Shown here: in pieces, positions 6,965 to 29,067 of the stretch
Layout of the letters: every line of letters starts with the position of its first letter
Position numbering within the stretch: position 1 is the first letter of the stretch
Source: a virus
Virus record (IMG/VR): IMGVR_UViG_3300033143_002180
Coordinates: 1-29,067 of that record
Length of the DNA: 29,067 nucleotides
Reading direction: 5' to 3' (one strand)
Position numbers and translations under genes: made by a program
Notes under the pieces: generated by a model
Database searches by the model: none
The model's input: only the letters and a program-made list of their open reading frames with translations
Told to the model about the DNA's origin: nothing

Positions 6965-8380
6965 TTAACCAATTAATGCTGCACCGTAAGCAGTGTTAAG
7001 AACCTTAACACCTAACAGAACATCAACTGTCACAAGAACACCCTGCGAGGAACCATTATAAGTAATGGTGATACGGATACCAACACCACCCATATTAGCT
7101 GTGGAACTAATAGCAAGACCAGCAGGAGCCGGAGCTAATGGTCGACTGACAAGAGCAATAGCATTCTTATGGAATGCAAAGTTAACGTCAGCAGGAGGAC
7201 TGAACAGAACCACATCATTATCAGTAACAGCAACATCTAACGAACGATTAAGAGTGATACCAGTCGTGTTAGTTGCGGTATCAGTAACAGCAATAACACT
7301 GTAAACACCACTCAAGATAACATTAGGTGTGCCAACAGTGGCAAAACTAACTAAAGTACCTACTGGAATAGAACCAACGATACCGTCTACAGTCATTTCC
7401 TTATTATAACCGACAGCATAATCGTCACTATCATCAATAAGACCTGTATCACCAATGGTAACAACATCATCATCAGCAATAGCAACCCGTAATCCAGGAC
7501 TGATAGTAACATCAATATCCTGAGTAGCTAATGTACCAAGAGTAGTAACCTGGTGAAGGACACCACCAATAGTAATCCACTGACCAACAGCAAATTGATC
7601 ACCAGCAGTATCACAGTGAATAACTGTGTCACCAATATCATAACCAGCAGTAAGATCAACAAGTGCTGTAACAGCAGTAACAGGTACTCCAGTAGAACTA
7701 GGAGCATTCTGGCACATAAACATATTAAACTGCAACTTACGTCCTAAGGACGCTTCACGCATTGCAGTACCTTCATCACCAATCTTATCAGCACTAATGA
7801 ACAAGTCAAGATTAAGTGCAGTAGATTCAGTCGTAGGACTAAGAATTAAGTTACGACCTGCCTCTGGGCACTTATTGATATTCATCCTCTTACGAGTTTC
7901 AAGGATGTACTGCTTAATGTTAGCAGAGGTTAATCCACCAGCAATACCTTCCTGGTTGGCAGTAAATTGATACGCACAACCTAAGATAATCTTATCAACA
8001 GCCTGAGCGATTGAAAGAACAGCAGGCTCAAGATACTCGTCACGCAACTGCTTGAAAGACTTACTCTCTTCACCATCCTTAATCATAAAGGACGTATGAA
8101 GATGCTGATCCAGAGGAATCTGAATATCAGTTGCATCTGCATCCTGAACAGTAACAGCATCAGCATTAGTCTTACGCTTAGCAGTAAATTCTGCTGGTTG
8201 ACGTGTATGGACAATATCGCCAAAATTGGCAACCAGTGGCGAAAAATCCTTATGAACAAGGTTACCAACAACCATGTTTTCAGTAAGGATAGCTACAGAC
8301 TCATTCGCCCATAATTCAGGAATATAGGCGTCAAGACTATTAGCATACACTAACTTAAAAGGCTTAGAAAACTTTAACAT
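6965..8380 (-). CDS. Major capsid protein, P22 gp5-like, with inserted domain
   Basis: This encodes 471 residues; start at 8380 follows GAGGAAG. Residues 1-235 contain the coat N-arm and core: VVGNLVHKDFSPLVANFGDIVHTRQP, a DQHLHTSFMIKD strand, a long helix AVLSIAQAVDKIILG, and a helix-turn with NLILSP. Residues about 400-471 (FAFHKNAIALVSRPL, then LLGVKVLNTAYGAALIG) match the end of P22-type coat proteins, where a similar F-h-x-x-A-I-x-x-V-S-x-P-L segment occurs. Between them, about 235-395, lie two similar Gly/Val/Asp-rich beta segments (AVGQWITIGGVLHQVTT; then IVGSIPVGTLVSFATVG). They resemble surface insertions that decorate or stabilise capsids. There is no protease gene nearby, so a P22-like scaffold exit without cleavage is plausible. 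It is preceded by the scaffold gene with one spacer base. Confidence 0.85.
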   Translation of the reverse strand: MLKFSKPFKLVYANSLDAYIPELWANESVAILTENMVVGNLVHKDFSPLVANFGDIVHTRQPAEFTAKRKTNADAVTVQDADATDIQIPLDQHLHTSFMIKDGEESKSFKQLRDEYLEPAVLSIAQAVDKIILGCAYQFTANQEGIAGGLTSANIKQYILETRKRMNINKCPEAGRNLILSPTTESTALNLDLFISADKIGDEGTAMREASLGRKLQFNMFMCQNAPSSTGVPVTAVTALVDLTAGYDIGDTVIHCDTAGDQFAVGQWITIGGVLHQVTTLGTLATQDIDVTISPGLRVAIADDDVVTIGDTGLIDDSDDYAVGYNKEMTVDGIVGSIPVGTLVSFATVGTPNVILSGVYSVIAVTDTATNTTGITLNRSLDVAVTDNDVVLFSPPADVNFAFHKNAIALVSRPLAPAPAGLAISSTANMGGVGIRITITYNGSSQGVLVTVDVLLGVKVLNTAYGAALIG

Positions 8381-8381
8381 T

Positions 8382-9206
8382 TTACTTCCTCAATTTACTA
8401 AAGTCCAAATCCGGATTCTTCTTACGCCACTCAGCGTAAGCAACAGGGTCATTCATAATAGCTGACAAAGCAGCTTGTGGTGTGCTATCACCACCCCTGC
8501 TACTATTAGCATTTAACCCACTAGTAGCAGTAGATTCAAATAAGTGACCATATTTATCGGTCAACTCCGCCATTCTTTTTAATACACCTTCAGGTGGTAA
8601 GTCTAAAGTTACAGGGTTACCGTCTTCATCTGAATCAGAAAACTTAACTCTTACTTCATAATTACCATTAGGCTGACCATCCACTAGCGACTGTGCTAAG
8701 TGTGTTTTCCCACCCAACATATCAACAATAACATCTGGGTTAATTGATTTTGCACCAACAGCAGCATCAAGTAATTCCCTACTTATCCTTGATTGAGTGT
8801 ATCTATTCTTCCAAGAATCTGCTTCCTTAGTAACCTTTTCGAGAAGCTTCACATGTTCTTTCTTATTTTTCTCTTGTTCTCGTTTTGATAACTCTTCTTT
8901 AGTTAAAAATTGATTTTGTAATTGTTCAATCTGTGCTTCAAGCTCTTCTTTCTGTTGAGCTGTGCCAGAGAACTGATCTTTAATAGTTGTTAACTGACCC
9001 ATTAACTCTTGATTCTGAGTAGTTAATTTTTTTCTATTATCAGACATCATCTTATTAAGTTCATCTTGGGCACCAGGTGTACCTTTAATATAATCAGATA
9101 ATGTTTTTGGCTCTTTAGGTGGTGGTGGATCACCAGGAGGTGGATCACCAGGAGGTGGATCACCTTCATACGCTAAACGCCATGCTTTAATACTTTTCTT
9201 TAACAT
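8382..9206 (-). CDS. Capsid scaffolding protein
   Basis: This encodes 274 residues; start at 9206 is preceded by TAGGAG. After a basic N-terminus there is a proline-rich repeat, GDPPPGDPPPGDPPPP (residues 15-30). A long Gln/Glu/Lys heptad region follows (about 45-145, with KEELEAQIEQLQNQF) and is very probably coiled coil. Then comes a small domain with SRELLDAAVGAKSINPDVIV. The C-terminus is short and charged (WRKKNPDLDFSKLRK), typical of the coat-binding tail of scaffolds. It lies immediately upstream of the coat gene. This order and architecture are standard for phage scaffolds of the minor structural type; it should be present in procapsids and lost from virions. The Pro-rich linker resembles that in the secreted protein at 27757-28572, but the rest does not. 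Confidence 0.82.
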   Translation of the reverse strand: MLKKSIKAWRLAYEGDPPPGDPPPGDPPPPKEPKTLSDYIKGTPGAQDELNKMMSDNRKKLTTQNQELMGQLTTIKDQFSGTAQQKEELEAQIEQLQNQFLTKEELSKREQEKNKKEHVKLLEKVTKEADSWKNRYTQSRISRELLDAAVGAKSINPDVIVDMLGGKTHLAQSLVDGQPNGNYEVRVKFSDSDEDGNPVTLDLPPEGVLKRMAELTDKYGHLFESTATSGLNANSSRGGDSTPQAALSAIMNDPVAYAEWRKKNPDLDFSKLRK

Positions 9207-9215
9207 TAGAAACTC

Positions 9216-9983
9216 CTAAGAAACCCTACTTAATTCAATAGCCTGAGGATCACACAAATAAGGCTTTAAATGTATCCAAGCTTCCGCACTAGGTATACCA
9301 GCCCTAATATACTCAGCCACAAAGGACGCATCGTAGGTAGAATGTGTCCCTAGATATTTGTTTTGAGTAATACCAATTGATTCGATTTCGTCCTGCATAT
9401 CCACATCATCAAGATACTTTAAAGAACATTCGTATGCTGCAAGTTCTAAGTCGAGTGGAACAACAGTATCAACACCCCGTGGAAATTGTAAAGACTGATC
9501 TTCATCGGTTTTTACCCCTGCAAAATTTAATCGATCAATAGCACGGGTAGCCATGATCAATGCTTTTTGCCTATCGTTAGCTAATGCTACCTCCCATGGG
9601 TCAGAGTTAAGACGTTGACTACCAAAATACAAATTAGCTCCAGTTATTGATCCATAGTAAGATATACTTCCTACTATACTACTTACACCAGTTATATAAC
9701 TATAATCTGGATCATCAACTGTGGCAATTGTAAATTGTGCTGGTACTGCTTCTATATGTGTAAACAGTAATCCTATAATATCCCCATCCATCTCAGCAGA
9801 TGTTAAAGCAATTGACCATTGACCATTACCTTCATGTACTGCTGAATTAGTTAATGATTGTTGAACACCACCGTCAATAGTCACAAAGCCATTAACAATA
9901 CCATTAAGTATAGCCGACCCATCCGACCTACTTATTAAGGCAAAAGTGAAACCATTAACAGATTTACCTTTTTCAAAACTCAT
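9216..9983 (-). CDS. Head-tail connector/adaptor fused to an N-terminal beta-domain
   Basis: This encodes 255 residues in two parts. Residues 1-90 form a beta-rich module (GFTFALISRSDGSAI, DGGVQQSL, HEGNGQWSIALTSAEMDGD), a type that recurs on phage structural proteins. Residues about 95-255 resemble the adaptor family that docks under the portal: a region around NLYFGSQRLNSDPWEVA, an Ala-rich helix with DRQKALIMATRAIDRLNFAG, a segment with QFPRGVDTVVP, and LAAYECSLKYLDD. The A-T-R-A-I-D-x-L and x-F-P-R pattern is common in adaptors of siphoviruses. The start overlaps the stop of the 1371-residue protein (ATGA). It is unusual that the connector precedes the scaffold and coat here rather than following them. 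Confidence 0.6.
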   Translation of the reverse strand: MSFEKGKSVNGFTFALISRSDGSAILNGIVNGFVTIDGGVQQSLTNSAVHEGNGQWSIALTSAEMDGDIIGLLFTHIEAVPAQFTIATVDDPDYSYITGVSSIVGSISYYGSITGANLYFGSQRLNSDPWEVALANDRQKALIMATRAIDRLNFAGVKTDEDQSLQFPRGVDTVVPLDLELAAYECSLKYLDDVDMQDEIESIGITQNKYLGTHSTYDASFVAEYIRAGIPSAEAWIHLKPYLCDPQAIELSRVS

Positions 9984-12900
9984 TGTTCTTGCTCACCAGT
10001 TACGAGTCTGTTTAAGTCCTTAGCGTAACTTGCTTTCCAACCAGGTATAACTTCATCAGTTATACTACCTGACATGTTAGCAGAGGATCCAAAAGATACA
10101 CTTAAGCCTCTAGTTATTTTTGTTGCTAATGTAACTGTTCCAGTACCATCGAAACCAGTTGTAAAAGCTTTATCGATATTTACAAAAGATGTAACGGTAG
10201 CTGTACTAACAAAAGCAGCAGCGAGAGACTGACTGAAACCTAAATTAGCTGTTAATGTACCTGTGCTATTTATTGCAATATTAAGTGGCTTACTACCACT
10301 TAACCTTGCTGTCATAGTTCCGAAGGAACTTACAGCAAAAGATAATTGTTTATTTACTCTTAAATCTGCTGCCATACTGCCAGAGGCAGTTATACTAGCA
10401 AAGAAACCTTCACTTGTTTTTAAAGCAGCTGTTACTGTAGCAGTTGACGTTATTGCAGCAACTAATGCTTTAGTAGCTGTAATATTAAAATCAGCTGTTA
10501 TAGTAGCAGAAGCAACTATACTTGTAGATAAAGCGGCTTTGTTTAATACTAATTCTGCCGTCATATTAGCGGCAGCAATGATAAACGCACCTAAAGGTTG
10601 CGTGGCACCTGATCTAACCCAAGCTGTCACAGTACCAGTAGAAATTATATCTGTTGATAAGGCGGCTTTATTATAATTTAAGGAACCAGTTAATATTCCG
10701 CTAGAAGTTATAGAAACATTAAAGTATTTAAAATTACCTGCATCTAACGATGCTACCATTACACCAGTAGCATTTATAGCAGCAGTTAATCCTCTAGTTC
10801 TATTTAAGTCCCCCGTCAAGGAACCAGTAGAAATTATAGCAGCAACTAACTGATGTGTTTCACCCTTAGTAACATCAGCCGTTAAGAAACCAGTAGAACT
10901 TATAGCAGCAGTTAGGCCCCTAGTTCTTTCTAAATCTGCCGTCAGAGTACCAGTTGAAGTTATAGCAGCAGTAAGTGTTTGCGTACCACCTGTAGTTATA
11001 TCTCCCGTAAGGGAACCAGTAGAAGTTATATCAGCAGCAAACTGCTTTACTCTGTTAAGGCTACCAGTTAACAAACCACTTGAAGTTATATTAGCAGATA
11101 AGGCTGCTTTATTAAGTGTAAGGTCACCAGTTAATAAGCCATTAGAAGTTACATGGAGATTGAAATTTTTAGAATTACCAGCATCAAGGTCTGCTGTCAT
11201 AGTACCAGAGGCAACTATGTCAGCAGCAAACTGTTCTGTTTTACTTAAAGTACCTGTTAAAGTACCACTGGAAACTATAGCAGATGTAAATGTTTTCTCT
11301 ACATCTAAGTTACCAGTTAAAGTACCAGTAGAAGTTATATCAACAGATAATGACTGTATACCACCTGTAGTAATATCTGCTACTAAAGTACCAGTGGAAG
11401 TTATATCAGTAGTAAATTGTTTTATTCTGTTAAGATTACCAGTTAATAAGCCACTGGAAACTATAACAGATGTTAATCCCCTAGTTCTTTCAATATCAGC
11501 AGTTAAAGTACCAGTAGAAGTTATATCAGCAGCAAGTGCTTTAGATGCTGTTGTAGTAATATCTGCTACTAAAGTACCAGTAGAAGTTATATCAGCAGCA
11601 AACTGCTTTATACGGTTAAGGCTACCAGTTAATAAGCCATTGGAAATTATATCAGCAGATAGGGCTGCTTTATTAAGTATTAAGTCCCCAGTTAATAAGC
11701 CACTGGAAGTTATATGTAGATTAAAGTTTTTAGAATTACCAGCATCAAGATCAGCTACTAATGTACCAGTAGCATTTATTGCAGCAGCTAATTGTCTAGT
11801 TCTAGTTAAATCCCCAGTTAATAATCCACTAGAAACTATGGCAGATGCAAATGTTTTCTCTACATTTAAAATACCAGTTAAAGTACCAGTAGAAGTTATA
11901 TCAGCAGCAAGTGCTTTAGCTGCACCTTTAGTTACATCTCCCGTCAAGGTTCCAGTTGAAGTTATATCAGTAGCAAACTGTCTAGTTCTATATAAATCCC
12001 CAGTTAATAAGCCACTAGAAGTTATAGCAGATGATAAAGCTGCTTTATTATAATTTAAATCAGCAGTTAAAGTTCCACTGGAAGTTATATCAGTAGTAAG
12101 TGCTTCTATAACAGCAGCAATAGTGACATCAGCTGTCATTAAGCCACTAGAAACTATACTTGTTATAAAGAATTTTCTAGGATCAACATATATAACCTCG
12201 ACACCTAATTGAGTTACTCTTGCTTTAGGCGTACCGTAGTCTAAGCGTATGACTTCGACCGCTTGTTGAGTGACTCTGGCCTTAGGTGTACCAACATTTA
12301 AATATACTACTTCAGAACCTTGTTGTGTTAAGCGAGCCTTAGCTACACTATCTCTACTTAAATCTCCTGTTAGTAAGCCTGAACCAGTAAAATCAGCAGC
12401 TAATTGATGTGTTGCATTTTCCCACAGATTAGCAGTTACTACACCTGAGCCAGTAAAATCAACAGAAAGAGCCTCTATAACCTGACCCTGTTTTTGTAGA
12501 TCAGCTGTTACTAACGCTGAACCAGTTATAGCAACAATTAATGGTTCATAATTAGGTATATGAATAACTTCAAGATATTGACCAGTGACTCTGGCAGTAG
12601 TTGTTTCTGTTACTGTATAAATAACTTCAAGGGGTAAGTGCGTTACCCTAAGGTGATTACTCTCAGCAATAAATTTTGTAATATCAGCAGTTACTAAGGC
12701 GGTTGAAGTTATAGCAGCAGATAGTGCTACTTCATAATTTAGATTCCCCGTCAGGGAGGCGGTTGAAATTATATCAGATGTAAGACCTCTAGTTCTTTTG
12801 TAATCAGCCGTCATAGTGCCAGAGGCAGTTATATCAGCTGATAACGATTCTGTAGAACCTGTTGAAAGATCACCCGTTAATAAAACACTGGAAGTTATAT

Positions 12901-14095
12901 CAGCAGTTAATTGTCTTTCTCTAGTTACGTCAGCCGTTAAAGTACCAGAGGCAACTATAGCAACTGATAATGATCTAGTTCTTTTTACATCACCCGTTAA
13001 TAAGGCACTGGAAGTTATATTAGAAGTTAATGTTTTAGTTGCACCTGCATTAATATCAGCAGTTACTAAAACATTTGAAGTTATATCTGAAGTTAAATAC
13101 CTAATTCTTTTAGAATCAGCTGTTAAAGTACCAGAAGCAACTATAGCAGTAGTTAAGCCTTTATATCTTTTTACATCAGCTGTCATAGTTCCTGAAGAAA
13201 CTATATCAACTAAAAGGTACTCTGTTATTATCTCTGATAGGTCAGCCGTTACAGTAGCAGTAGATGTTATATCAGAAGCTAATTGTCTTTCCCTATACAA
13301 TAAAGCTGCCATATTACCACTGGCAACTATGTCAGATGTGAACTGACATTTTCTACCAATGTTGGCTACCATTAAGACATTAGAAGTTATATCAGTTGTT
13401 ACACCTCTGATTCTTTTTACATCTGCTGTTACTAAGCCTGAACCAGTTACAGCAGCAACTAATTGCTCTGTTACTGGTTCATCTGCTTCCTTAAATGATA
13501 TACCAATTAAGCCCCAGTCATCAGCAGAAATATTAAAGCCTACGGCTTTGCTACCTGCTGTACCACCATCTAAATCATACTCAGTGCCCCATACCTGATT
13601 ACCGGCATCATAAGTATGGACTAATGTATAATTTGTACCCGCCGTAGGCGGAGTACGGTAGCCATGGCCTAATCCACCATATATAAGAGCATTATCAACA
13701 ACCGTCAGGTTAAGTGTTGGGTTAGCTGTAGTACCTGTGGCACTATTAGAATTATCATAAGCTGCTGTTTTTAATGTAGCTACATCAAAAGAAGTAATAC
13801 TTGCTTGAATATTGAGTAAGCCTGTGTTAGGTATACTTAATGTATTTGAACCAGTTGATGGCTCAATAACATACCATACCTCAACACCTGCTTCAATTGA
13901 TACTTGGAAACCTTGGCCACTATCGACCATTGGTAAAGAGTTATAGGTGGGAGCCCCACCTGCACGTGCTACAGCATTACGGATAAAAATAGTCAATACA
14001 AGTAGCTTACAACTGCTACCACACGAATGTGTGGTATCATTTGGGTTAGCAGCACCATAAGTGCCCTGCGTACTTGTATCAACAGTAAAAGCCAT
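9980..14095 (-). CDS. Giant repeat protein, putative fibre or decoration (1371 aa)
   Basis: Residues 1-207 form an N-terminal domain rich in Gly, Thr and Asn, ending WGLIGISFKEAD, that is probably a beta-sandwich. From about 211 to 1340 there are about 50 copies of a roughly 21-residue repeat with core A-D-I-T-S-T-G-T-L-T-A-D-L, joined by basic linkers such as NRIKQF or ERTRGL. Two interruptions carry a different motif, R-V-T-x-x-x-x-E-V-I-Y (two copies near residue 490, three near 600). The C-terminus (GWKASYAKDLNRLVTGEQEQ) is non-repetitive. A beta-solenoid or extended fibre is likely. The protein is rich in Ser, Thr, Ala and Leu and has no transmembrane segment. The start codon overlaps the stop of a sulfotransferase gene by one base, so the two are made together. 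A role at the virion surface is inferred from neighbours; no enzymatic domain is seen. Confidence 0.6.
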   Translation of the reverse strand: MAFTVDTSTQGTYGAANPNDTTHSCGSSCKLLVLTIFIRNAVARAGGAPTYNSLPMVDSGQGFQVSIEAGVEVWYVIEPSTGSNTLSIPNTGLLNIQASITSFDVATLKTAAYDNSNSATGTTANPTLNLTVVDNALIYGGLGHGYRTPPTAGTNYTLVHTYDAGNQVWGTEYDLDGGTAGSKAVGFNISADDWGLIGISFKEADEPVTEQLVAAVTGSGLVTADVKRIRGVTTDITSNVLMVANIGRKCQFTSDIVASGNMAALLYRERQLASDITSTATVTADLSEIITEYLLVDIVSSGTMTADVKRYKGLTTAIVASGTLTADSKRIRYLTSDITSNVLVTADINAGATKTLTSNITSSALLTGDVKRTRSLSVAIVASGTLTADVTRERQLTADITSSVLLTGDLSTGSTESLSADITASGTMTADYKRTRGLTSDIISTASLTGNLNYEVALSAAITSTALVTADITKFIAESNHLRVTHLPLEVIYTVTETTTARVTGQYLEVIHIPNYEPLIVAITGSALVTADLQKQGQVIEALSVDFTGSGVVTANLWENATHQLAADFTGSGLLTGDLSRDSVAKARLTQQGSEVVYLNVGTPKARVTQQAVEVIRLDYGTPKARVTQLGVEVIYVDPRKFFITSIVSSGLMTADVTIAAVIEALTTDITSSGTLTADLNYNKAALSSAITSSGLLTGDLYRTRQFATDITSTGTLTGDVTKGAAKALAADITSTGTLTGILNVEKTFASAIVSSGLLTGDLTRTRQLAAAINATGTLVADLDAGNSKNFNLHITSSGLLTGDLILNKAALSADIISNGLLTGSLNRIKQFAADITSTGTLVADITTTASKALAADITSTGTLTADIERTRGLTSVIVSSGLLTGNLNRIKQFTTDITSTGTLVADITTGGIQSLSVDITSTGTLTGNLDVEKTFTSAIVSSGTLTGTLSKTEQFAADIVASGTMTADLDAGNSKNFNLHVTSNGLLTGDLTLNKAALSANITSSGLLTGSLNRVKQFAADITSTGSLTGDITTGGTQTLTAAITSTGTLTADLERTRGLTAAISSTGFLTADVTKGETHQLVAAIISTGSLTGDLNRTRGLTAAINATGVMVASLDAGNFKYFNVSITSSGILTGSLNYNKAALSTDIISTGTVTAWVRSGATQPLGAFIIAAANMTAELVLNKAALSTSIVASATITADFNITATKALVAAITSTATVTAALKTSEGFFASITASGSMAADLRVNKQLSFAVSSFGTMTARLSGSKPLNIAINSTGTLTANLGFSQSLAAAFVSTATVTSFVNIDKAFTTGFDGTGTVTLATKITRGLSVSFGSSANMSGSITDEVIPGWKASYAKDLNRLVTGEQEQ
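10060..13465 (-). repeat. Coding tandem repeat, about 63 bp unit, about 50 copies
   Basis: The repeats encode the 21-residue units of the giant protein. Copies are diverged overall, but blocks are far more alike: a stretch at about 11031-11190 recurs at about 11592-11750, offset by 561 bp (187 codons) and mostly identical. This indicates recent duplication of a multi-repeat block. Confidence 0.9.
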
Positions 14096-14964
14096 TACAC
14101 TAAGATTGCTCTCTTAGTTGTTAATTCGTAATCAAACTCTTCCATCATCTCACTATGGTCTTCCTCGATTTTAGTCACTTGCTCCTTAGTTAATATGTCT
14201 TTCCATTGATTAGCTTTGCCAACTCTAAAGAATTTACCACTTGCACTATTTTCACTTAACTCTGCGAAACCATTCTCTTCCTCATGTTTACGTAAGTTCT
14301 TAAAAGTGTTTTCTTTAATAGCAAAATCTAATCTATCTTGGTCAACTGGCATAGTTAAGAATTGTATTACTTTTGTAAATTCTTCATGTGGCTTATCTAA
14401 TAAGTCTTCAAATTTTAATACTAATGTTTTAATATTTTCATTAAGTTTGGTCCATGTCTTAACATGCTCTGACCAAGTTAAAAGTATGTGATGTAAGTTA
14501 TCTTTATTTTTAAGTGCAAATTTTATGTTACACATATGGGCAATAGCTTCATCAATATCTTCACCCAAATGATCAGCAAAACTAACAGCAATATCTCTTG
14601 GGTCTCTGACAAGATATACTGCCCCTCTACTCAACTGAAATGGGCAAACAGGAATATCATTGACAGCTATTTTCGCATGATGTGTTTTTAATACTATATC
14701 TCTTGTAGCATAGACATTAAGGAAATTAAGTAAGGTCGCTGGTCTATAATATGATTGCTCTTCAAATGTCATCCGATCTAACGGTCTGGCACAAGTTATT
14801 TGTACAACCTGTGAAGTTAAATCGTTATATGCAAACTGGAAAGCACTATTAATGTCAATAGGGAAACCAGACACATAAGAATTAATAAACATACGCAACC
14901 AAGTATTACCACTTTTAGGGTAACTAGCGAACCACCATATTTTTCTTTCTGACGGATGGATCAT
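14095..14964 (-). CDS. PAPS-dependent sulfotransferase (second of pair)
   Basis: This encodes 289 residues with the sulfotransferase fold signature (PF00685). The 5'-phosphosulfate loop is SYPKSGNTW at residues 14-22, with Lys17 as the phosphate-contacting lysine. A K-T-H triad, KTHHAK at 93-98, supplies the candidate catalytic histidine. The 3'-phosphate site is VRDPRDIAVS at 119-128, with Arg120 and Ser128. Near the C-terminus, FFRVGKANQWKDILT (about 246-260) corresponds to the R-K-G-x-x-G-D-W-K region. The length is normal for a soluble sulfotransferase, and there is no signal peptide or TM segment, so it would act in the host cytoplasm using host PAPS. The start overlaps the stop of the upstream sulfotransferase by four bases; the stop overlaps the start of the giant repeat protein. 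The acceptor is unknown: host glycan, metabolite or virion protein are all possible. Confidence 0.88.
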   Translation of the reverse strand: MIHPSERKIWWFASYPKSGNTWLRMFINSYVSGFPIDINSAFQFAYNDLTSQVVQITCARPLDRMTFEEQSYYRPATLLNFLNVYATRDIVLKTHHAKIAVNDIPVCPFQLSRGAVYLVRDPRDIAVSFADHLGEDIDEAIAHMCNIKFALKNKDNLHHILLTWSEHVKTWTKLNENIKTLVLKFEDLLDKPHEEFTKVIQFLTMPVDQDRLDFAIKENTFKNLRKHEEENGFAELSENSASGKFFRVGKANQWKDILTKEQVTKIEEDHSEMMEEFDYELTTKRAILV

Positions 14965-15740
14965 AAATACTTACAACCTTTCATTGTTTTACCGTGATGT
15001 TCCTCAATAAGCTTAGTTTGTTTCTTTGTTAGATACTTTTTCCATTGATTCGCCTCACCCATTCTAAAGAAATTACATGCCCCGCCTCTCTCGGTGAAAC
15101 CATTTTCTATTTCTAATTTTTTAAGATTATTGAAACTAGCTTCTTTAATAGCAAATTTTACTCTTTCTTCACTATGTCGCGGTAAATATAATACTTTTAT
15201 TATGGCTTTAAAAGCCGCTTCTGTATGCTCTAGTAAGTCTTCATATTTAAAGCCTTTCAGATTTGTGTTCCACCAAGAGTCTACATGTGTTGACCAACTA
15301 CTTAGTACATGACCCATGTTATTAACTTTTGATGATATAAAACACGATTCATCATTCATAAAGTCTATTGCTTCATCTATCTCTATACTATAATGTTTAG
15401 ATAAGCTTATAACTACGTCTCTTGGGTCTCTTATTACGTAAATACCACCATTAGTTTTACTTAAAGGTATTAATCTTTTATCCTTGACTTTAACATTAGC
15501 GTTATGTGTTTTTATACATATGTTTTCTAGCTTACTTATGGACTCATTATAATTACCTAAGTATTCATAAAGATCTTTAGCTTTAGGATGTAAATCAGGT
15601 TGTATATCACTTATTACAAATTGTTTATCGGTATTTATGTCTATTTTCTCACCTGTTAGGTAAGCTAATAGAAACATTCTTACCCAGGTGTTACCGCTTT
15701 TTGGGTAGCTTGCGAGCCACCATATGTTACCAAGTTTCAT
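14961..15740 (-). CDS. PAPS-dependent sulfotransferase (first of pair)
   Basis: This encodes 259 residues, a diverged paralogue of the next gene. The 5'-phosphosulfate loop is SYPKSGNTW at 11-19. The K-T-H motif is KTHNAN at 77-82. The 3'-phosphate site is IRDPRDVVIS at 103-112. The C-terminal FFRMGEANQWKKYLT matches the equivalent segment of the neighbour. Both retain all cofactor-binding motifs, so both should be active rather than one being decayed. The protein stops about 30 residues earlier than its partner. No strong Shine-Dalgarno precedes the start at 15740. A dispersed TACTGGA repeat lies in the short gap before the gene. Having two complete enzymes side by side suggests either two acceptors or a heterodimer; this is inference. 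Confidence 0.88.
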   Translation of the reverse strand: MKLGNIWWLASYPKSGNTWVRMFLLAYLTGEKIDINTDKQFVISDIQPDLHPKAKDLYEYLGNYNESISKLENICIKTHNANVKVKDKRLIPLSKTNGGIYVIRDPRDVVISLSKHYSIEIDEAIDFMNDESCFISSKVNNMGHVLSSWSTHVDSWWNTNLKGFKYEDLLEHTEAAFKAIIKVLYLPRHSEERVKFAIKEASFNNLKKLEIENGFTERGGACNFFRMGEANQWKKYLTKKQTKLIEEHHGKTMKGCKYL

Positions 15741-15775: not shown

Positions 15776-15789
15776 TACTGGATACTGGA
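15776..15789. repeat. Dispersed TACTGGA repeat, two tandem copies
   Basis: Two direct TACTGGA heptamers abut the TAG stop of the Gp80-like gene. The stretch 15771-15791 (TTAAATACTGGATACTGGACT on the plus strand) differs at two positions from 27367-27387, showing common origin. Confidence 0.7.
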
Positions 15790-16227
15790 CTAGGCTAATG
15801 TTACAGTAATAGCACCAGTAGTAAATTCAGCAGTGTCACCACTGTCAATAGCTTTACCCGTATCAACAGTAGAGTAGAACCACATTTCACCAGTATTATA
15901 AGTAGCATTATCAACGATAGCACAACTACCTACAGTACCCCAAGAACCAGTAGCTTGCGGATATGTAATAGCGGTAGCATTATCCGTTTGACCATCACCA
16001 CCAGCTGTAGCAGTCCAATTAGCATCAAGTGGAGCTAATGCCTGACGAGCATAGGTATCAGTGGTAACGACTTCAACACCAGTACCAGTAGTAAAGATAG
16101 CGGTATCGCCGTCAATTGGTGTCGTAGTGCACAGTGCTATTGCCACTACTGAAGGCTTTGCGAATGTTGCCGTCCTGAACAGATGGCCGATCAATGTGTC
16201 TTCCAAATAATCTGACATTTCCGACAT
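15790..16227 (-). CDS. Gp80-like phage structural (tail fibre-associated) protein
   Basis: This encodes 145 residues beginning MSEMSDYLEDTLIGHLFRT. The pattern S-D-Y-L-E, then h-F-R-x-x-x-F-x-x-P and V-A-I-A-L, is characteristic of a small phage protein family often called Gp80-like. Later family features are also present: a Y-A-R-Q segment (DTYARQAL), an N-A-T-A-I-T-Y-P-Q-A-T-G-S-W-G block and a C-terminal G-A-I-T-V-T-L. Members are found among virion genes, often near fibres, and are predicted beta-rich. The ATG at 16227 has AAGGAG seven bases upstream. It begins 116 bases before the previous gene ends. The virion role is family-based; the precise position in the particle is unknown. Confidence 0.7.
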   Translation of the reverse strand: MSEMSDYLEDTLIGHLFRTATFAKPSVVAIALCTTTPIDGDTAIFTTGTGVEVVTTDTYARQALAPLDANWTATAGGDGQTDNATAITYPQATGSWGTVGSCAIVDNATYNTGEMWFYSTVDTGKAIDSGDTAEFTTGAITVTLA

Positions 16228-16660
16228 TTGTAATCTCCTTCTCAGAGTTTTCAGGGTGTTGGTCTAAAACAAAATCGGGACTCAATTTACCAAGCTCGAT
16301 GGCTGCTTTGGCCCGTTTTACAAAAGTTTGTATTGTCACCCCATACAACCAAACTCTTATAGGTTCGACCGTAGCATCAACATAAATTTTTCTTTTATCA
16401 CCCACTGGTTCACCAATAAGCAAACTAGCATGTGCATATCTGAGAATATGTGATTTAAACATCTCCTCTTCAGTGACATCCATTTTACCATGTATGACAT
16501 GTGTCCCATCAGTATAAAAAGTTATTTTTTTACCTAATATTCTACAAGTAGCCAATACATTTGCTTTACTACCTTCAGAAACATCACCTTGATGTCTTAA
16601 TAACCTCTTCATCATTAAGGAAGGCTTCATATGTGCTACAAATTGTTTTACTTTAGCCAC
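16112..16660 (-). CDS. Unknown phage protein, long overlap with next gene
   Basis: This encodes 182 residues that I do not recognise. The N-terminus is basic (MAKVKQFVAHMKPSLMMKRL). A central part with GKKITFYTDGTHVIHGKMDV and a helical segment VKRAKAAIELGKLSPDF suggest a mixed alpha/beta fold. There is no TM segment, signal or obvious catalytic motif. Its start overlaps the end of the previous gene by eight bases. Its final 38 codons share DNA with the start of the Gp80-like gene in another frame, so the C-terminus is constrained by two proteins or is dispensable. A role in virion assembly is suggested only by position. Confidence 0.6.
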   Translation of the reverse strand: MAKVKQFVAHMKPSLMMKRLLRHQGDVSEGSKANVLATCRILGKKITFYTDGTHVIHGKMDVTEEEMFKSHILRYAHASLLIGEPVGDKRKIYVDATVEPIRVWLYGVTIQTFVKRAKAAIELGKLSPDFVLDQHPENSEKEITNVGNVRLFGRHIDRPSVQDGNIRKAFSSGNSTVHYDTN

Positions 16661-17987
16661 TTAATTGTACTCCTTCAAATTCTAAGTCTATTTCTACTTG
16701 AGGTCCACAAACTGCACCTCTTCTTGGTTGGTTGAAACTTAATGGATTAGTTATTAAGAACACTCTCCAAATTTCACCCTCCCAAGTTGTAAGTTTCATA
16801 CTATGGCCATTATGTTGTTTTAAGAAGTATTCAAACTCAAGCCCTTTGTTTCTAGTCATACTGAAAGTGTAAGTCAACCTACGACTAGTATTATATTTTA
16901 TATATGTTCTCTTAACACCATTCATGCTTTTCTTTAATAATAAATCTGATACAATATTTTCTGTATTACCAACTAAAGGCTTAGGTAAAGTTATTACGTG
17001 TTCTGGTCCCTCAAAAGGTGACTGAAGAGTCATGTACTCATTCAGTAATGTGCCTATTGCAACCTGGTTAAAAGTTAATAGACTAGTTGCACTTCTATCA
17101 CCTTGCGTAGTAAGCAAAACATCTAAAGTACCTGTACCAGTAAAACTTACAGAAAAATTAGAATCAGCAGTATACGTTACATCTTGGGTGAGATTTAAAG
17201 TATTACTTGCTACACCTGGTAAATAATCTACTGAACCTTCTGCTAGGTGGGTGAAATTTAAAACACTGAATACTGGTCGTGAAGGATCAACATCCTGTAA
17301 TAAAACTAAAGTATTGTCAGCTACTTTATTATATAACTTACCGCCTACAGCTAACTGACTAAGAAGTAATACATTAGATGCACTTACATCAGTTGCTCTA
17401 CCTACAGATACTTCATCACTAAGTGATAGAGTATTTGAAGGTGTAACATTAAATACATTCTCTGTTGTTACATCTTGTGTAAGCTGTAGTAAGTTACCTG
17501 GGTACTGTTCAGGTACTAATATTGCTTGTAAATTACCTGTACCTACAAAGTCTACTGCGAACTGTACAGCACCTGCTCTTGATAAATTAGCAGTAACTAC
17601 CGCATTAGAATAAAAACCTACAATAAAACTACCAGTCAAATCCTCTGTAGAATGTATAACCTCAATATATTGACCAGTGACTCTGGCTGTAGAATCTATG
17701 TTATATGTATAAATTACCTCAAGAGGTAAATGAGTTACACGTAAGTGGTGACCTTCAGTTAAAGTTAAATCTGCTGTTAAAAAAGCTGTAGCATTAATAT
17801 TTGCTACTAAGCCTTTACGGCTATCTACATATATTACTTCAGTACCTAGTTGTGTTACTCTTGCTTTAGGTGTACCACTCCTTAAAAGTATAACCTCATT
17901 ACCTTGTTGAGTAAGGCGAGCATTAGGGGTGCCGGTATCTAAATAGATAACCTCTACACCCTGTTGTGTAAGACGTGCTGTCGCCAT
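16653..17987 (-). CDS. Repeat-bearing tail/fibre-like structural protein (444 aa)
   Basis: The protein is a mosaic. Residues 1-57 hold three copies of R-(L/V)-T-Q-x-G-x-E-V-I-x-L (as in ARLTQQGVEVIYL), nearly the same as the insert in the giant repeat protein. Next come one or two ITSSGLLTADL-type units (VANINATAFLTADL), then RVTHLPLEVIYT and RVTGQYIEVIHS, again shared with the giant protein. Residues about 175-310 carry several S-N-T-L-x-L-x-Q-x-V units (SNTLNLTQDVTY and similar). The last about 130 residues are a non-repetitive domain (VSDLLLKKSMNGVKRTYIKY, then MKLTTWEGEIWRVFLITNPL), probably a compact beta-domain that anchors it. The start at 17987 is preceded by AAGGTCTGGA. A structural role is inferred. 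Confidence 0.58.
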   Translation of the reverse strand: MATARLTQQGVEVIYLDTGTPNARLTQQGNEVILLRSGTPKARVTQLGTEVIYVDSRKGLVANINATAFLTADLTLTEGHHLRVTHLPLEVIYTYNIDSTARVTGQYIEVIHSTEDLTGSFIVGFYSNAVVTANLSRAGAVQFAVDFVGTGNLQAILVPEQYPGNLLQLTQDVTTENVFNVTPSNTLSLSDEVSVGRATDVSASNVLLLSQLAVGGKLYNKVADNTLVLLQDVDPSRPVFSVLNFTHLAEGSVDYLPGVASNTLNLTQDVTYTADSNFSVSFTGTGTLDVLLTTQGDRSATSLLTFNQVAIGTLLNEYMTLQSPFEGPEHVITLPKPLVGNTENIVSDLLLKKSMNGVKRTYIKYNTSRRLTYTFSMTRNKGLEFEYFLKQHNGHSMKLTTWEGEIWRVFLITNPLSFNQPRRGAVCGPQVEIDLEFEGVQLSG

Positions 17988-17995
17988 TCCAGACC

Positions 17996-19039
17996 TTACG
18001 CAGTTATCTCAATACCAAACTCAGCAGCATTAACATCAGATTCAGTCCACGCAACAGCTGTATCGGGGTTAAGTTCCCACATACTAGTTAAAAATTGATA
18101 TTCAGCATCAGAAGGTATTAAAGTATCACCCTGGTAATTTGTACTACTTATTCTTGTTAAAGCCTTAAATTCTCTTGTACCAGGGACATCTTTTTTAACT
18201 GTAGAGACAACCTGTACACCTGCTACTGAAGATATAGTACCTGTAAGTGCTTCATAATTAAATAAGTCAACATCAGATATATTATCTGATTCTACATAAG
18301 TTGTATCACCATCATTAGGCTCTTCATCAACTAATAGATAATTATCAACACTATTACCATCTGACCCAGAAAAATCACTAGTAGTTCCATTGCTGTCAGG
18401 CATTATTGTTTCAATATTCAACATACCTATAAAATCAGACCATGTGCCTGATCCAGTATCATCCCAAATAACTAAAGAATCTAAATAAGTATAAGTACCG
18501 TGACCATTATAGGTGAAACTGTGAATAATACCTGCTGATGCACCGTAATTAGTGTCTTCACCAGCTATTAAATCTAACCATATTTCACCATCAATTTTAA
18601 CTACACAGTCACCTGTTGAACAAGAATCGGTACTAGTACCCTTTATTTCAAAATGGTGCCAAGTATTTAATGTTAAGCTTTTTATAGAGGAACTACCAAG
18701 TTGAGCATCAGTATAAGTACTCCAATGAATTTGCCCACTATCTTCTAAAAATAATTTAAAGTAGTATTGACCAGTTGATGATGTTTTAAACAAACATAAC
18801 ACATTATCAGTTAAAACAGCGGACCTATACCACCAAAAAGACACAAATAAAGAACCGGTAAATGATGTTGTAAGATATGTGTATGTAACTTGTTCATTAG
18901 TTATAAATCTAATACTAGCCCTACCATTTTTTACAATAGTTGTTTCTATATCAGGTGAAGCAACATAACCCAAACCTCTTTTATTTAAATCACTAATAAT
19001 ATCATAAAAGTCAAAGCTATCAGCCAGTAAGAAAGCCAT
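17996..19039 (-). CDS. Concanavalin-like structural protein, paralogue 3
   Basis: This encodes 347 residues and is the third of three tandem paralogues. The N-terminal about 215 residues look like a lectin/LamG-type beta-sandwich, with TSFTGSLFVSFWWYRS, then a W-H-H-F-E-I-K strand, DCVVKIDGEIWLDL and a Y-L-D-S-L-V-I-W-D strand. The C-terminal domain has DEEPNDGDTTYVES and ends NPDTAVAWTESDVNAAEFGI, a closing pattern shared by all three. The start follows AAGGGG. Such proteins are common in the structural regions of aquatic phages; binding to host carbohydrate is possible but unproven. It might equally decorate the capsid. Confidence 0.6.
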   Translation of the reverse strand: MAFLLADSFDFYDIISDLNKRGLGYVASPDIETTIVKNGRASIRFITNEQVTYTYLTTSFTGSLFVSFWWYRSAVLTDNVLCLFKTSSTGQYYFKLFLEDSGQIHWSTYTDAQLGSSSIKSLTLNTWHHFEIKGTSTDSCSTGDCVVKIDGEIWLDLIAGEDTNYGASAGIIHSFTYNGHGTYTYLDSLVIWDDTGSGTWSDFIGMLNIETIMPDSNGTTSDFSGSDGNSVDNYLLVDEEPNDGDTTYVESDNISDVDLFNYEALTGTISSVAGVQVVSTVKKDVPGTREFKALTRISSTNYQGDTLIPSDAEYQFLTSMWELNPDTAVAWTESDVNAAEFGIEITA

Positions 19040-19049
19040 CTTATTCCCC

Positions 19050-20090
19050 TTAAGTTTTCACTTTAATGCCGAATTCCGCAGCATTAACTTCGGATGGTGT
19101 CCAAGCTGTAGCTGTGGCAGGTGATTCTGTCCAAATCTTTTGCATTGCTCTATATGTATCTTGTGCTGAGTTAGCAAGGTCATGATCGTAATCTGCTGCA
19201 CTGATACGTGTTACAGGTACTATTGTTCTGTAATTAATACCTGTTGACCTTCTAGCGACAGTGTTAACACATACAGCATCAATAGTATTGACAGAGGCAT
19301 GTAAATCTTCAAAAGTGTACAAGTCTTTATTGTTTAAGGTACTAGTGCTAACATAAGATGTATCATCATCATATTCTACTTCATCAACCATCTCATAATT
19401 AGCAGCACCACCTGATCTGGTCCACTGGCTACTGTTGCCTGCTCCATTAACCTTTAATGTGCTAATGTATCTTGGACCCATGAAATCATTCCATGTTGAT
19501 CCTTCTGTATCATAAACAATTACATCATCAAAATACATTTGCTGACTTATATTAGCAGCAAGTTGAAAATTATCAAAATATGGACCACCAGAGTACGCTG
19601 TATCAGTTGTAGCTGGTACATTTATAACTTCATTACCATCTACCCTAACGATACAATCATCAGTAGCTATTGAGTCTTTTAAAGTAACTTTAACTTCAAT
19701 ATAATACCATTTACCATCAGTCATGATCCCTGGGACAGAACTACCTAATGTTGTGTAATTACCACTTACAAAAGATAAAGATCCATCATTAAAATTAAAT
19801 TTTAACATCATTTGTATTGTGTCTTTTTGTAGCATTCTACAAAAATAGGTATTAATAACAGGAGAAGTAATAATATATGCCCAAAAAGCAATATACGCTG
19901 TTTCTTCATAGAATGTATATTTTGGAAGAGCTATTCTATTATTACTGGTTAATTTAACACTTTGTCTACTATGTACACTACATACTACACTTTCTTCTAA
20001 AACTGGCGTCCCAAATGCTGTCATATCACTTTCACTTATATCATCAGCATTAAGAAAATAATCAAAGCCTGTAGCGTAAAGTATGCTCAT
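19050..20090 (-). CDS. Concanavalin-like structural protein, paralogue 2
   Basis: This encodes 346 residues with the same architecture as its neighbours: an opening MSILYATGFDYF, a middle strand set with WYYIEVKVTLKDSIATDDCI and RVDGNEVINVPATTDTAYS, a MYFDDVIVYD strand, then a C-terminal domain with DEVEYDDDTSYVS and ESPATATAWTPSEVNAAEFG. The start overlaps the stop of paralogue 1 by four bases (ATGA). The three share motif spacing, but their sequences have diverged well beyond a recent duplication. That fits selection for different ligands or different positions in the particle. Confidence 0.6.
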   Translation of the reverse strand: MSILYATGFDYFLNADDISESDMTAFGTPVLEESVVCSVHSRQSVKLTSNNRIALPKYTFYEETAYIAFWAYIITSPVINTYFCRMLQKDTIQMMLKFNFNDGSLSFVSGNYTTLGSSVPGIMTDGKWYYIEVKVTLKDSIATDDCIVRVDGNEVINVPATTDTAYSGGPYFDNFQLAANISQQMYFDDVIVYDTEGSTWNDFMGPRYISTLKVNGAGNSSQWTRSGGAANYEMVDEVEYDDDTSYVSTSTLNNKDLYTFEDLHASVNTIDAVCVNTVARRSTGINYRTIVPVTRISAADYDHDLANSAQDTYRAMQKIWTESPATATAWTPSEVNAAEFGIKVKT

Positions 20091-21124
20091 ACTTCTATTT
20101 TCACTCCAAACTCAGCCGCATCAAATTCAGACTGTGTCCAAGCTACTGAGGTAGCTGGTGATTCATCCCAAATTTTATTTTCATACCAAGACCATGTTGT
20201 ATTCGTTTCAGTTATAGCTGGCCCGTCATAATTAGTAGAACCTATTCTTGCAAAATGTCTAAAATCTCTTTGATTTGCGAATGACGTACTTCTTGTTCTT
20301 GATTTTAAATTAACACCTAAAATAGTAACAGATGATTCACTTATATCTTCATATTCATAAGAGTCTCTTTCATCAACGATACCTGATTCAACATATGTTG
20401 TATCATTATCTACGTTGCCTATATCATCAACCATTAAATAATTTGTACCACCTGATGTACTAAATTCACTATAATTACCTGACGCATTAGGTACTCGCAT
20501 TTCAACAAAAGCTTCCCCTGCAAGGGAATCATTATACCCACTTTGATTATCCATCATTATGATATTATCATAATATAACCTAGTGTATGTGCCAGCGTGG
20601 TGAAATCTTACATAACGCAATGTTTCATCAGCAGAATCAGCAGTATCAGTTGTAGCAGCTAAATTAAGTACCTCATTACCATCTACTTTAATAATACAAT
20701 CATTAGTGCTTATAGAATTAGATATAGTCATTTCTATTTCTATATAATGCCATACATCCTCATCTATTTTAAAATCTGATGTACCTAATATTGTCGAACC
20801 TCTTTTAAATTGTAATTGTCTCTTACCAGTTATAGTCCATGAAGATTGTAATACATTTGAAATATTATAAAATGATATAAGATCATTATTAATATGTCTA
20901 TAATCAAAATACACATGAAATTGAATAAATATTTTACTATTAGCTATAGCTGAACCTTTATCATATACACCATAATAAGTATCAGATGATGAAGCTATAC
21001 CAGAATATGTTCCAGTTTTCACCTCTGTAACACTTGAAGTTATAGATGTTCCAGAATAAGTAGACCAAGTCCTATTACTAAATGCACCACCTATATCAAA
21101 ACTTTGTGTGAAAAGCAAAGACAT
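20087..21124 (-). CDS. Concanavalin-like structural protein, paralogue 1
   Basis: This encodes 345 residues, immediately after the portal gene. It opens MSLLFTQSFDIGGAF, then has VWHYIEIEMTISNSISTNDC and KVDGNEVLNLAATTDTADS, and a LYYDNIIMMD strand. The C-terminal part carries DNDTTYVES and ESPATSVAWTQSEFDAAEFG. The ribosome site GGGGAGGG is inside the end of the portal gene, two bases from the stop. The DCIIKVDGNEV segment is the closest match between paralogues 1 and 2, so these two are probably the most recent pair. There is no signal peptide, so it acts in the cytoplasm during assembly. Confidence 0.6.
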   Translation of the reverse strand: MSLLFTQSFDIGGAFSNRTWSTYSGTSITSSVTEVKTGTYSGIASSSDTYYGVYDKGSAIANSKIFIQFHVYFDYRHINNDLISFYNISNVLQSSWTITGKRQLQFKRGSTILGTSDFKIDEDVWHYIEIEMTISNSISTNDCIIKVDGNEVLNLAATTDTADSADETLRYVRFHHAGTYTRLYYDNIIMMDNQSGYNDSLAGEAFVEMRVPNASGNYSEFSTSGGTNYLMVDDIGNVDNDTTYVESGIVDERDSYEYEDISESSVTILGVNLKSRTRSTSFANQRDFRHFARIGSTNYDGPAITETNTTWSWYENKIWDESPATSVAWTQSEFDAAEFGVKIEV

Positions 21125-22945
21125 TTACTTACCCTCCCCACGGGAATCATCTTGTGGGACGATGCCTTTCATCTGACTATCATCTTTTTCACTTCTTGAG
21201 GCATTGGATATTCCTCCGAGTTCCGGAGTGCCGCGAGCTTGAGATTGTGATTCCGCAATACGCTTAATTCGGTCAGCATGATCTGTTTTGGCTTTTTCAA
21301 CTTCATCGTCTGGATACGTCTTTGCCTGGCTTGCTGAGTCAAGGCTAATTAATCCTTGTTCTATGTCTTTGGATAATGTGTCAGAGTCAGAAAATACAAT
21401 TTTAGCAGCATCAATCTCTTTGTTAATTTCTTCTAATGTCTCATTAGATACATCTGAGCCTATGCTAAGCTCTACAGCTTTTTTAAGTGCTTCCTTCTTA
21501 TAAGTTATTGAGGGAACTACTTCAGCAGTTTCTAAAAGCTTACTTGCCTCTTCTCTCTTATCCTTATCCGTTTTTATATGGTATTTCTTTGGGTAAACAA
21601 TAGTGGGTAACTTGCCACTTTTATCTTTGTACCAAGTCCAATATTTAGCTATGCTTCTTTCACCATGCTCTAATTCAATACCAATATAGCTCAATCCTGC
21701 CTCTAGTGAGCGTTCGTCATACCCTTTACTCTCAGCTGAAGCCATTTTAGGCTGAATATTTGTTACTGCTAAGTTAATAAGTAGACGTATGTCTTTTTTG
21801 ATATCTTCCTGTTTCTTCATTGAAGCCAGTAAAGGCTCAGGAGATGGATGTATAAAAACTGGATAATCGAGATCTTTTGGTACTCTCCGACCGGAGACTA
21901 CACCAAGTGTTATCTCTTTATTTTCACCTACAGCAGCCTGTTCAGCAGAACCAGGTCTGACTATAGACACACCGTCACTTTGTGTTGTATTACCTGGTGT
22001 AGCTGTACGAGCCCAGACATTATCTACTCTTGGGTCATATTTTTCAGCATAAAAAGCATAATTACTCTTTAATGAATAAGCCACATCACTTGATGACATA
22101 TTCATAAGAGCAATTTGGTAGTTTGAGACATCAGCTAACAAACTTTCTGTTATCTCAAACTGAACAAAAGGTATTGACGGTAGATTTAAGGTTATTATAT
22201 CTATACCTAGCTCACCGAACCTATCTATAGGCTTTGACTCTTCATCAAAAAACTGAACTAAAGTTACACCGTCTTTAACCCACATTAAGCGGTACCGCTC
22301 AACATAAGCTGTAGGTAAGAAGCAATTTTCGTTAGTTTTATACGTGTGGTCCCTTAGTAAAAGGGCTTTAAACTCTGCACCATCTGCTGTTGTATCTGTG
22401 GCCCAGTTTAAAATGTCTTCAGCCGGGTAAGAGTATAAATATGGCCTAGCAAGTGACGCATCTTTAATTGTGGATCCACGTAGCATAGGCATATCTACAA
22501 ATACGCCTATTTTCTGCATAGCTAATAACTCAGGTAGGATTATACGTCCTACATAGCTATTCATAGTGCTACCAATAAGGTCTACACCACCACTCTTACC
22601 TAAAATAGCCTCTTGGTAACTATCTACACCACCTAATCTTGTAACATCCGGTACACGTTGGAAAATAGAGTTTTTAATATCACTTAACCCTGCTTTAGCA
22701 AAAGCAGTAGAGTAAGTCATAGCCTTACGACTGGCAAAATCATCATCGCTTTCACGTTTGCTGAATTTTTCCAGATATTGATCAATAAAATCGTCACCAC
22801 TCTTTTTTACTGCCCGCCACTTGTACCAATTATCTACGTTAGCCTCATACTCAGGGTGGAGCATAGTGCTTATGTCATTATTACATGACTCTAACACTTG
22901 ATCTACATCAAACGCACCTAAAGTGCGAAGTTCGTCTACTGCCAT
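21125..22945 (-). CDS. Portal protein
   Basis: This encodes 606 residues, start at 22945 after GAGGTAGAG. Size, position directly after the large terminase, and content fit a dodecameric portal, close to the DUF4055-type portals. The N-terminal part has W-Y-K-W-R-A-V-K-K, then FASRKAMTYSTAFAKAGLSD and helical segments. A middle block has YLYSYPAEDILNWATD, a short motif seen in such portals, and NLPSIPFVQFEI. A helical region about 360-420 (KKQEDIKKDIRLLINLAV) fits the stem/wing, and the Lys/Glu-rich residues after 440 fit the crown. The last 60 residues are polar and probably disordered. It would sit at a capsid vertex and serve as the packaging channel. Confidence 0.82.
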   Translation of the reverse strand: MAVDELRTLGAFDVDQVLESCNNDISTMLHPEYEANVDNWYKWRAVKKSGDDFIDQYLEKFSKRESDDDFASRKAMTYSTAFAKAGLSDIKNSIFQRVPDVTRLGGVDSYQEAILGKSGGVDLIGSTMNSYVGRIILPELLAMQKIGVFVDMPMLRGSTIKDASLARPYLYSYPAEDILNWATDTTADGAEFKALLLRDHTYKTNENCFLPTAYVERYRLMWVKDGVTLVQFFDEESKPIDRFGELGIDIITLNLPSIPFVQFEITESLLADVSNYQIALMNMSSSDVAYSLKSNYAFYAEKYDPRVDNVWARTATPGNTTQSDGVSIVRPGSAEQAAVGENKEITLGVVSGRRVPKDLDYPVFIHPSPEPLLASMKKQEDIKKDIRLLINLAVTNIQPKMASAESKGYDERSLEAGLSYIGIELEHGERSIAKYWTWYKDKSGKLPTIVYPKKYHIKTDKDKREEASKLLETAEVVPSITYKKEALKKAVELSIGSDVSNETLEEINKEIDAAKIVFSDSDTLSKDIEQGLISLDSASQAKTYPDDEVEKAKTDHADRIKRIAESQSQARGTPELGGISNASRSEKDDSQMKGIVPQDDSRGEGK

Positions 22946-22988: not shown

Positions 22989-23016
22989 TACTGGACTCTT
23001 TCTTCTTTATACTGGA
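22989..23016. repeat. Dispersed TACTGGA repeat, two copies at the TerL end
   Basis: Two TACTGGACTCT copies 21 bp apart lie in the terminase-portal gap; the second encodes part of the last residues of the terminase (IQSPV) and overlaps its stop. They belong to the same family as the copies at 15776, 25749, 26842 and 27378. Confidence 0.7.
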
Positions 23017-25649: not shown

Positions 25650-25862
25650 TTAACGACAGCAACGTACTCTACGTACTCTGTGTACTCTGTTTACTCTGTA
25701 TACACGGGTACTACGTACTCTGCGTACTGGCCTAATACGGATACTGCGTACTGGACTAACATAGGTGCTACTAACACAAGTAGTCTGTACGCACATATCA
25801 CATGCTGCTGGTGGTGCTGGCGAGCTACAACTCAACACACAAAAAAGTATTAACGAACCCAT
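25650..25862 (-). CDS. Small Arg-rich lipoprotein-like protein
   Basis: This encodes 70 residues; ATG at 25862 has GGAGGG upstream and lies 13 bases inside the end of the peptidase gene. Residues 1-11 are hydrophobic (MGSLILFCVLS) and Cys12 sits in a lipobox-like V-L-S-C. There is no basic residue before the hydrophobic stretch, and the signal is short, so lipidation is uncertain. The following P-A-P-P-A-A resembles outer-membrane spanin linkers. The last 33 residues are almost purely Arg/Val with Ser, Tyr and His. They are encoded by repeats of A-G-A-G-T-A-C type, part of the dispersed repeat family at 15.7-27.5 kb, so the tail may be a by-product of repeat expansion. Confidence 0.4.
   Translation of the reverse strand: MGSLILFCVLSCSSPAPPAACDMCVQTTCVSSTYVSPVRSIRIRPVRRVRSTRVYRVNRVHRVRRVRCCR
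25659..25760. repeat. AGAGTAC / TACTGGA repeat cluster in the lipoprotein gene
   Basis: On the plus strand the region is a run of GTACTCTG-like units, one TACTGGC and one TACTGGA copy (25725 and 25749). The unit is near 9 bp in the coding part. It is related to the dispersed repeats near genes at 22989 and 27373. Confidence 0.6.
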
Positions 25863-27360: not shown

Positions 27361-27463
27361 AGTATTTAAATACTGTGTACTGGACTCTGTGTACTGGACT
27401 CTGTGTACTGGACTCTGTGTACTGGACTCTGTGTACTGGACTAATGATTCTGTGTACTGGATT
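27361..27463. repeat. 14-bp tandem array upstream of the RebB-like gene
   Basis: A perfect palindrome AGTATTTAAATACT (27361-27374) runs into five head-to-tail copies of CTGTGTACTGGACT (27373-27442), a 7-base spacer and a variant copy CTGTGTACTGGATT (27450-27463) that contains part of the stop codon of the 79-residue gene. The period of 14 is not a multiple of three, so it is not shaped by coding. It could bind a regulator in front of the RebB-like gene. Confidence 0.9.
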
Positions 27464-28973: not shown

Positions 28974-29067
28974 GCCCAGCCTCAGCCCAGCCTCAGCCCA
29001 GCCTCAGCCCAGCCTCAGCCCAGCCTCAGCCCAGCCTCAGCCCAGCCTCAGCCCAGCCTCAGCCCAG
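28974..29067. repeat. 11-bp tandem array at the right edge
   Basis: Eight perfect copies of GCCCAGCCTCA and six bases of a ninth run to the window end. It is GC-rich, unlike the surrounding phage sequence. Confidence 0.95.

Follow-up and report, generated by a model that had tools for sequence, protein, structure and literature searches.

Tandem sulfotransferase genes in the virion operon of an uncultured phage and their possible role in virion sulfation

According to the account in PMC12363180, which cites Freeman 2023, mycobacteriophages glycosylate their capsid and tail-tube proteins by means of their own glycosyltransferases. Sulfotransferase (ST) genes have been reported in cyanophages, OM43 phages and glacier viruses (PMC10580990, PMC8290583), and the passage on phage sulfotransferases in PMC10580990 called their role unclear in 2023. 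In bacteria, the gene of the PAPS sulfotransferase RaxST of Xanthomonas lies beside that of its polypeptide substrate RaxX (PMC6637879), an arrangement comparable to the STs beside virion genes presented here. Our searches of the open-access literature for a phage sulfotransferase near structural genes, or for a porin-linked sulfotransferase, returned nothing relevant.

The stretch of DNA analysed here (the window; 29,067 nucleotides, positions 1 to 29,067 of IMG/VR record IMGVR_UViG_3300033143_002180) is a contig of an uncultured virus. It encodes two predicted PAPS-dependent sulfotransferases on the minus strand: ST2 (14961-15740; 259 aa), the upstream member of the tandem pair with respect to transcription, and ST1 (14095-14964; 289 aa). 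The two genes overlap by four bases (ATGA, 14961-14964), and the stop codon of ST1 shares base 14095 with the start of a gene for a 1371-aa protein (TAATG). An earlier interpretation without database searches (the sequence-only reading) had named overlaps of four bases and one base, and both are exact. In a profile search, both proteins matched PF00685 (Sulfotransfer_1) over its full length (profile positions 5-254/255; cut-off 22), ST1 with an E-value of 7.5e-25 and 88.2 bits and ST2 with an E-value of 2.9e-24 and 86.3 bits; they share 39% identity with each other. The cofactor motifs SYPKSGNTW, KTH and RDPRD, described earlier as retained, were all found in both proteins, as were the PAPS 5'-PSB and 3'-PB motifs and the catalytic histidine. 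When 50 members from phages and bacteria were aligned, K17, S18, G19, T21, W22, K93, H95, R120 and S128 (ST1 numbering) proved invariant, and the PAPS-binding and catalytic residues were unchanged among phage members down to approx. 30% identity.

Structure prediction points in the same direction. The AlphaFold2 model of ST1 (mean pLDDT 95.8) has a predicted sulfotransferase fold; its top Foldseek match was Teg12 with PAP (E 1.2e-12), followed by SULT1A1-PAP, and TM-scores to PAP-bound enzymes were approx. 0.6-0.67. Judged by these features, ST1 and ST2 are intact PF00685 members that look catalytically competent. Since the PAPS and catalytic residues are invariant and the modelled fold of ST1 matches PAP-bound sulfotransferases, both enzymes are expected to work, and the earlier claim of two active enzymes is borne out as predicted competence. 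The two copies may serve separate acceptors or form an ST1-ST2 heterodimer.

The pair had been placed inside a phage virion operon, and profile matches from terminase to tape measure confirm this. The surrounding genes, all on the minus strand, encode the terminase large subunit TerL (23007-24662; PF05876, E 3.9e-33; phrog_675, E 1.4e-86), the portal protein (21125-22945; phrog_145, E 8.3e-28), an Ad1-like head-tail adaptor (9216-9983; phrog_477, E 1.2e-10), the head scaffolding protein (8382-9206; phrog_206, E 2.8e-14), a P22-like major capsid protein (MCP; 6965-8380; phrog_283, E 2.1e-57; PF11651, E 1.9e-26) and the tail tape measure protein, which is truncated by the window end (2-3796; phrog_1272, E 1.5e-33; PF10145). 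In transcription order, a Gp80-family gene is followed by ST2, ST1, the giant 1371-aa repeat protein, the head-tail adaptor, the scaffold and the capsid. A further contig, IMGVR_UViG_3300033153_004539 (52.4 kb), is 99.98-99.99% identical across the whole window and carries the same ST pair, which is therefore not a single-contig assembly accident. This contig supplies the missing part of the tape measure gene and, in addition, a block of replication genes for family A DNA polymerase, exonuclease, primase-type proteins, ParB-like proteins, helicase and methyltransferase.

The window ends in 8.5 copies of the 11-bp repeat GCCCAGCCTCA (28974-29067), and since the 52.4-kb contig likewise ends in GCCCAGCCTCA, the assembly probably broke at this repeat. 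A perfect 14-bp tandem repeat, CTGTGTACTGGACT, occurs five times at 27373-27442. Copies of its TCCAGTA core, perhaps putative binding sites, are scattered at 22989-23010, at 25749 and at 15776-15789, the last between the Gp80 gene and ST2. Three tandem paralogues of phrog_2448 (17996-21124) lie between the portal gene and the cassette that contains Gp80.

The passages on phage sulfotransferases in PMC10580990 and PMC8290583 treat them as auxiliary metabolic genes, the role of which is unclear. Solved relatives of ST1 and ST2 act on phenols, steroids and glycopeptides. The pair might accordingly sulfate a metabolite or a lipid and have no link to the particle. We regard such a metabolic function as improbable: the pair is not accompanied by metabolic genes, and the recurrent neighbours of viral STs are structural. 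No APS kinase match was obtained in the 52-kb contig, and linked sulfate-activation genes were not found in this phage. An APS-kinase match above the cut-off appeared in one of 50 records (L041), where the APS-kinase-like gene (8909-9286; PF01583, E 3e-22, 95 of 152 positions) is located between the capsid gene and the ST.

Relatives of the STs are encoded by 80 loci in IMG/VR, which were sampled by PKSGNTW-type patterns, so that more divergent phage STs are under-represented. The sequence-only reading had treated the tandem pair as a unit. Most relatives have a single copy: among 71 viral records checked as a whole, the pair was present in one, the window's phage, one more record (L018) harbors two separated copies, and all the others contain a single ST. 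In L018 (6875-10274), the two STs are set apart by two genes, one of 204 aa and one whose product has a phrog_3758-type domain. The pair is hence not a conserved unit across relatives; it is a rarity of the window's phage, and the single enzyme represents the family, which is common in uncultured viral contigs. Searches of cultured phages with four query proteins gave no significant ST homologue (E 1e-3).

The Gp80-family gene, 49 nt upstream of ST2, encodes a virion protein of 145 aa (15790-16227, minus strand; PF23140, E 9.9e-30), and its profile matched the 'Virion-associated phage protein' 8jou_a in the PDB (E 1.1e-11). It belongs to a cassette together with a 182-aa protein with a GTG start (16112-16660, minus strand), homologues of which adjoin Gp80 in six related loci (L006-L010, L019), and a 444-aa repeat protein (16653-17987, minus strand; phrog_13560, E 2.1e-6). 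Gp80 and the 444-aa protein are candidate acceptors. The 444-aa protein is related to the 1371-aa repeat protein (9980-14095, minus strand; E ~1e-41), and the position of these related proteins on either side of the Gp80-ST-ST genes suggests a duplication within a fibre-like cassette. In most relatives with the window's capsid family the portal gene is followed directly by Ad1, and an ST is missing. In the window's subfamily, the slot bordered by portal (upstream) and Ad1 (downstream) contains the 444-aa protein, a 182-aa-type protein, Gp80, an ST and often repeat proteins. Within this capsid family, no ST was seen in the slot without the Gp80 cassette. Gp80 itself does not need the ST, because no ST of the window's kind was found in any of 16 cultured or deposited phage records with Gp80.

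The giant repeat protein had been proposed as the target of the pair, with co-occurrence of the two as a check. It is the immediate downstream neighbour with a one-base overlap, Ser and Thr make up 26% of its residues, and the ST of L019 is likewise followed by a shorter homologue. However, the head-tail adaptor gene comes directly after the ST in L007, where the giant protein is absent between them, other genes separate ST and repeat protein in L006 and L008, and in L010 the ST is upstream of gp80. Moreover, STs linked to MCP or phrog_3758-type genes lack such a protein altogether. These arrangements weaken the proposal, and the giant protein is a possible, non-constant partner; a reading in which the pair acts specifically on it, as a special case of virion sulfation, appears very doubtful. 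The constant partner of the ST in the window's phage family is the Gp80 gene with its cassette.

Virion genes are also the prevalent neighbours of viral STs in other phages. Genes immediately upstream of 58 viral STs included P22-type coat (7/58), Gp80 (7/58), phrog_3758 'virion structural protein' (8/58), a phrog named 'head protein' (4) and SU10 capsid (1); these neighbours were scored independently, and the head families may overlap. By gene-order reading, an MCP, Gp80 or phrog_3758-type gene was adjacent or next-but-one to the ST in at least 39 of the 50 cases from the phage group; for the phrog_3758-type cluster this adjacency holds by construction, because its members first came to light as genes upstream of STs. 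The virion nature of this cluster is taken from the PHROG label and a structure model, and its member next to the STs models as a tail-fibre-like fold (best solved match tail fibre 9rkv_A, E 9.6e-5). A common ancestry of this neighbour and Gp80 was unsupported (hhalign probability 1.2%). Outside the window's family, 23 loci show both MCP and ST, and in 22 of them the ST follows MCP at a distance of no more than one gene, compared to approx. 5 expected by random gene position; these loci fall in few lineages, mostly one with MCPs 50-81% identical, which limits the independence of the count. The MCP label is not circular, since in the window MCP and the STs are not neighbouring genes. More distant relatives of the capsid-linked group usually show the order MCP followed by a gene of approx. 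210 aa, and an ST between the two occurs only in the closest members of the group. The ST has therefore entered virion operons at more than one site and has remained next to virion genes. Linkage to virion structural genes, the absence of which from relatives had been set as a refuting condition, holds in diverse phages whose lineages are partly non-independent.

Two observations concern the proteins encoded at these loci. The capsid gene of L045 (8709-9956) and related capsid genes of ST-bearing phages contain two short Ser/Thr-rich insertions or loops missing from most ST-less relatives, a lead only, since the ST-bearing members form one clade. An apparent fusion of ST and virion protein in L032 was rejected, as the additional N-terminal part resembles an open frame that continues upstream, with a TTG start, on a GC-rich contig.

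In the phylogenetic tree, bacterial STs formed a clade (support 97) and phage STs fell outside; the one exception, L147, comes from a metagenome bin. Apart from L147, a single branch separates the viral group from the rest, but as the root of the tree is not fixed, this group may be paraphyletic. The nearest relative of ST2 is the only ST of L019, with which it grouped (support 99), and ST1 fell with STs of other members of the window's family, which indicates two old copies rather than a fresh duplication. The phrog_3758 and Gp80 neighbour labels each changed at least twice on the tree; the position of the ST switches between contexts, yet stays by virion genes.

Bacterial relatives show a layout of their own. 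A porin-like gene is located directly upstream of at least one ST in approx. 30 of 80 bacterial loci (L085-L164), mostly from Alphaproteobacteria (for example L128:6758-9694, L133:5930-8831 and L118:2087-8834). Directly adjacent STs are present in 24 of the 80, with up to nine in L116, and L118 contains the porin-ST-ST unit twice. A YggS-like gene often comes after the porin-ST loci, and because it commonly adjoins, the porin-ST arrangement may go back to a single ancestral locus. The order 'abundant surface protein, then ST, ST' is the same as in the window, and the bacterial loci may point to an undescribed sulfation of outer-membrane proteins.

Since bacterial relatives follow porin-like genes, often as tandem STs, outer-membrane proteins may be substrates of the wider family. 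Morons are common in late operons, and ST1 and ST2 might be such genes that sulfate an outer-membrane protein or polysaccharide of the host, with the benefit of masking the receptor against superinfection or of keeping progeny off debris. In contrast, the phage STs do not belong to the clade of the bacterial STs, a function at the host surface would not need a position right after capsid or fibre genes in several contexts, and glycan-synthesis genes adjoining the window pair were not found. Overall, host-surface sulfation is the main rival reading, though rather unlikely.

We favor PAPS-dependent sulfation of a virion surface protein over sulfation of the host surface and assign it a probability of about 0.5. 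The proposal builds on intact enzymes with the correct fold, on co-directional, tightly packed genes of a virion operon and on the recurrence of virion genes as neighbours in other phages. We infer the catalytic activity, late expression, acceptor, sulfated residue and benefit in the following scheme. ST1 and ST2 would be working enzymes of the cytosolic type, produced late in infection alongside particle proteins. With host PAPS as donor, they would add sulfate to hydroxyl groups of an exposed virion protein whose gene shares their operon, with members of the Gp80-containing cassette as the likeliest acceptors. The virion surface would gain negative charge, which might alter adsorption, stability or recognition. 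Sulfation of a particle protein is favored because the steady partner of the ST is a virion gene and not a metabolic pathway, because cytosolic-type enzymes would meet virion proteins prior to assembly, and because an APS-kinase-like gene accompanies MCP and ST in L041. Several points count against it. Morons of any function can insert in late operons, and SULT-fold enzymes mostly sulfate small molecules. An APS kinase was not detected in the window's phage, and Gp80 is present in cultured or deposited phages in which no such ST was found. Furthermore, the linkage in the capsid-linked group may be one event retained by descent, since this group is one clade, and the virion-gene neighbourhood was read from IMG/VR contigs, which are enriched for hallmark genes.

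In dozens of environmental phages, similar enzymes are encoded next to capsid or fibre genes, which suggests that some phages might sulfate their own particles. Only tentatively do we extend this to a widespread phage system, in which dedicated STs beside capsid and fibre genes sulfate the particle, with a matching porin-ST-ST system in bacteria. If true, virion sulfation would be a kind of phage protein modification that we did not find described in the literature searched. A charged modification would then join glycosylation in phage particle biology, and would affect how particles adsorb, how stable they are and how they are recognized. Phage sulfotransferases would also have a testable target in the capsid or fibre protein encoded next to them, and in Alphaproteobacteria the porin-ST-ST layout would make outer-membrane protein sulfation worth looking for.

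With SULT1A1, Teg12 and StaL of PF00685, ST1 and ST2 have the whole-domain match, the PAPS and catalytic motifs and, as far as the ST1 model goes, the fold in common. In contrast to these enzymes, with which they share approx. 20% identity, they are phage-encoded in a virion operon. The previously reported phage genes differ as well. Those of OM43 phages are described as Sulfotransfer_3 (PF13469), whereas ST1 and ST2 belong to PF00685, and the sulfotransferase of Synechococcus phage S-SCSM1 matched ST2 at chance level (E 2). The passages on cyanophage, OM43 and glacier-virus sulfotransferases in PMC10580990 and PMC8290583 do not describe the linkage to virion genes that is present for STs of the window's type. 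RaxST, likened to the STs by its description, is cellular and a tyrosylprotein sulfotransferase with a known tyrosine substrate (PMC6637879). The virion glycosylation of Che8, Corndog and Myrna, as outlined in PMC12363180, resembles the present proposal in that a phage-encoded transferase acts on the phage's own particle proteins; there, an unrelated enzyme family attaches a sugar, as proved by experiment, whereas ST1 and ST2 are proposed from sequence to attach sulfate.
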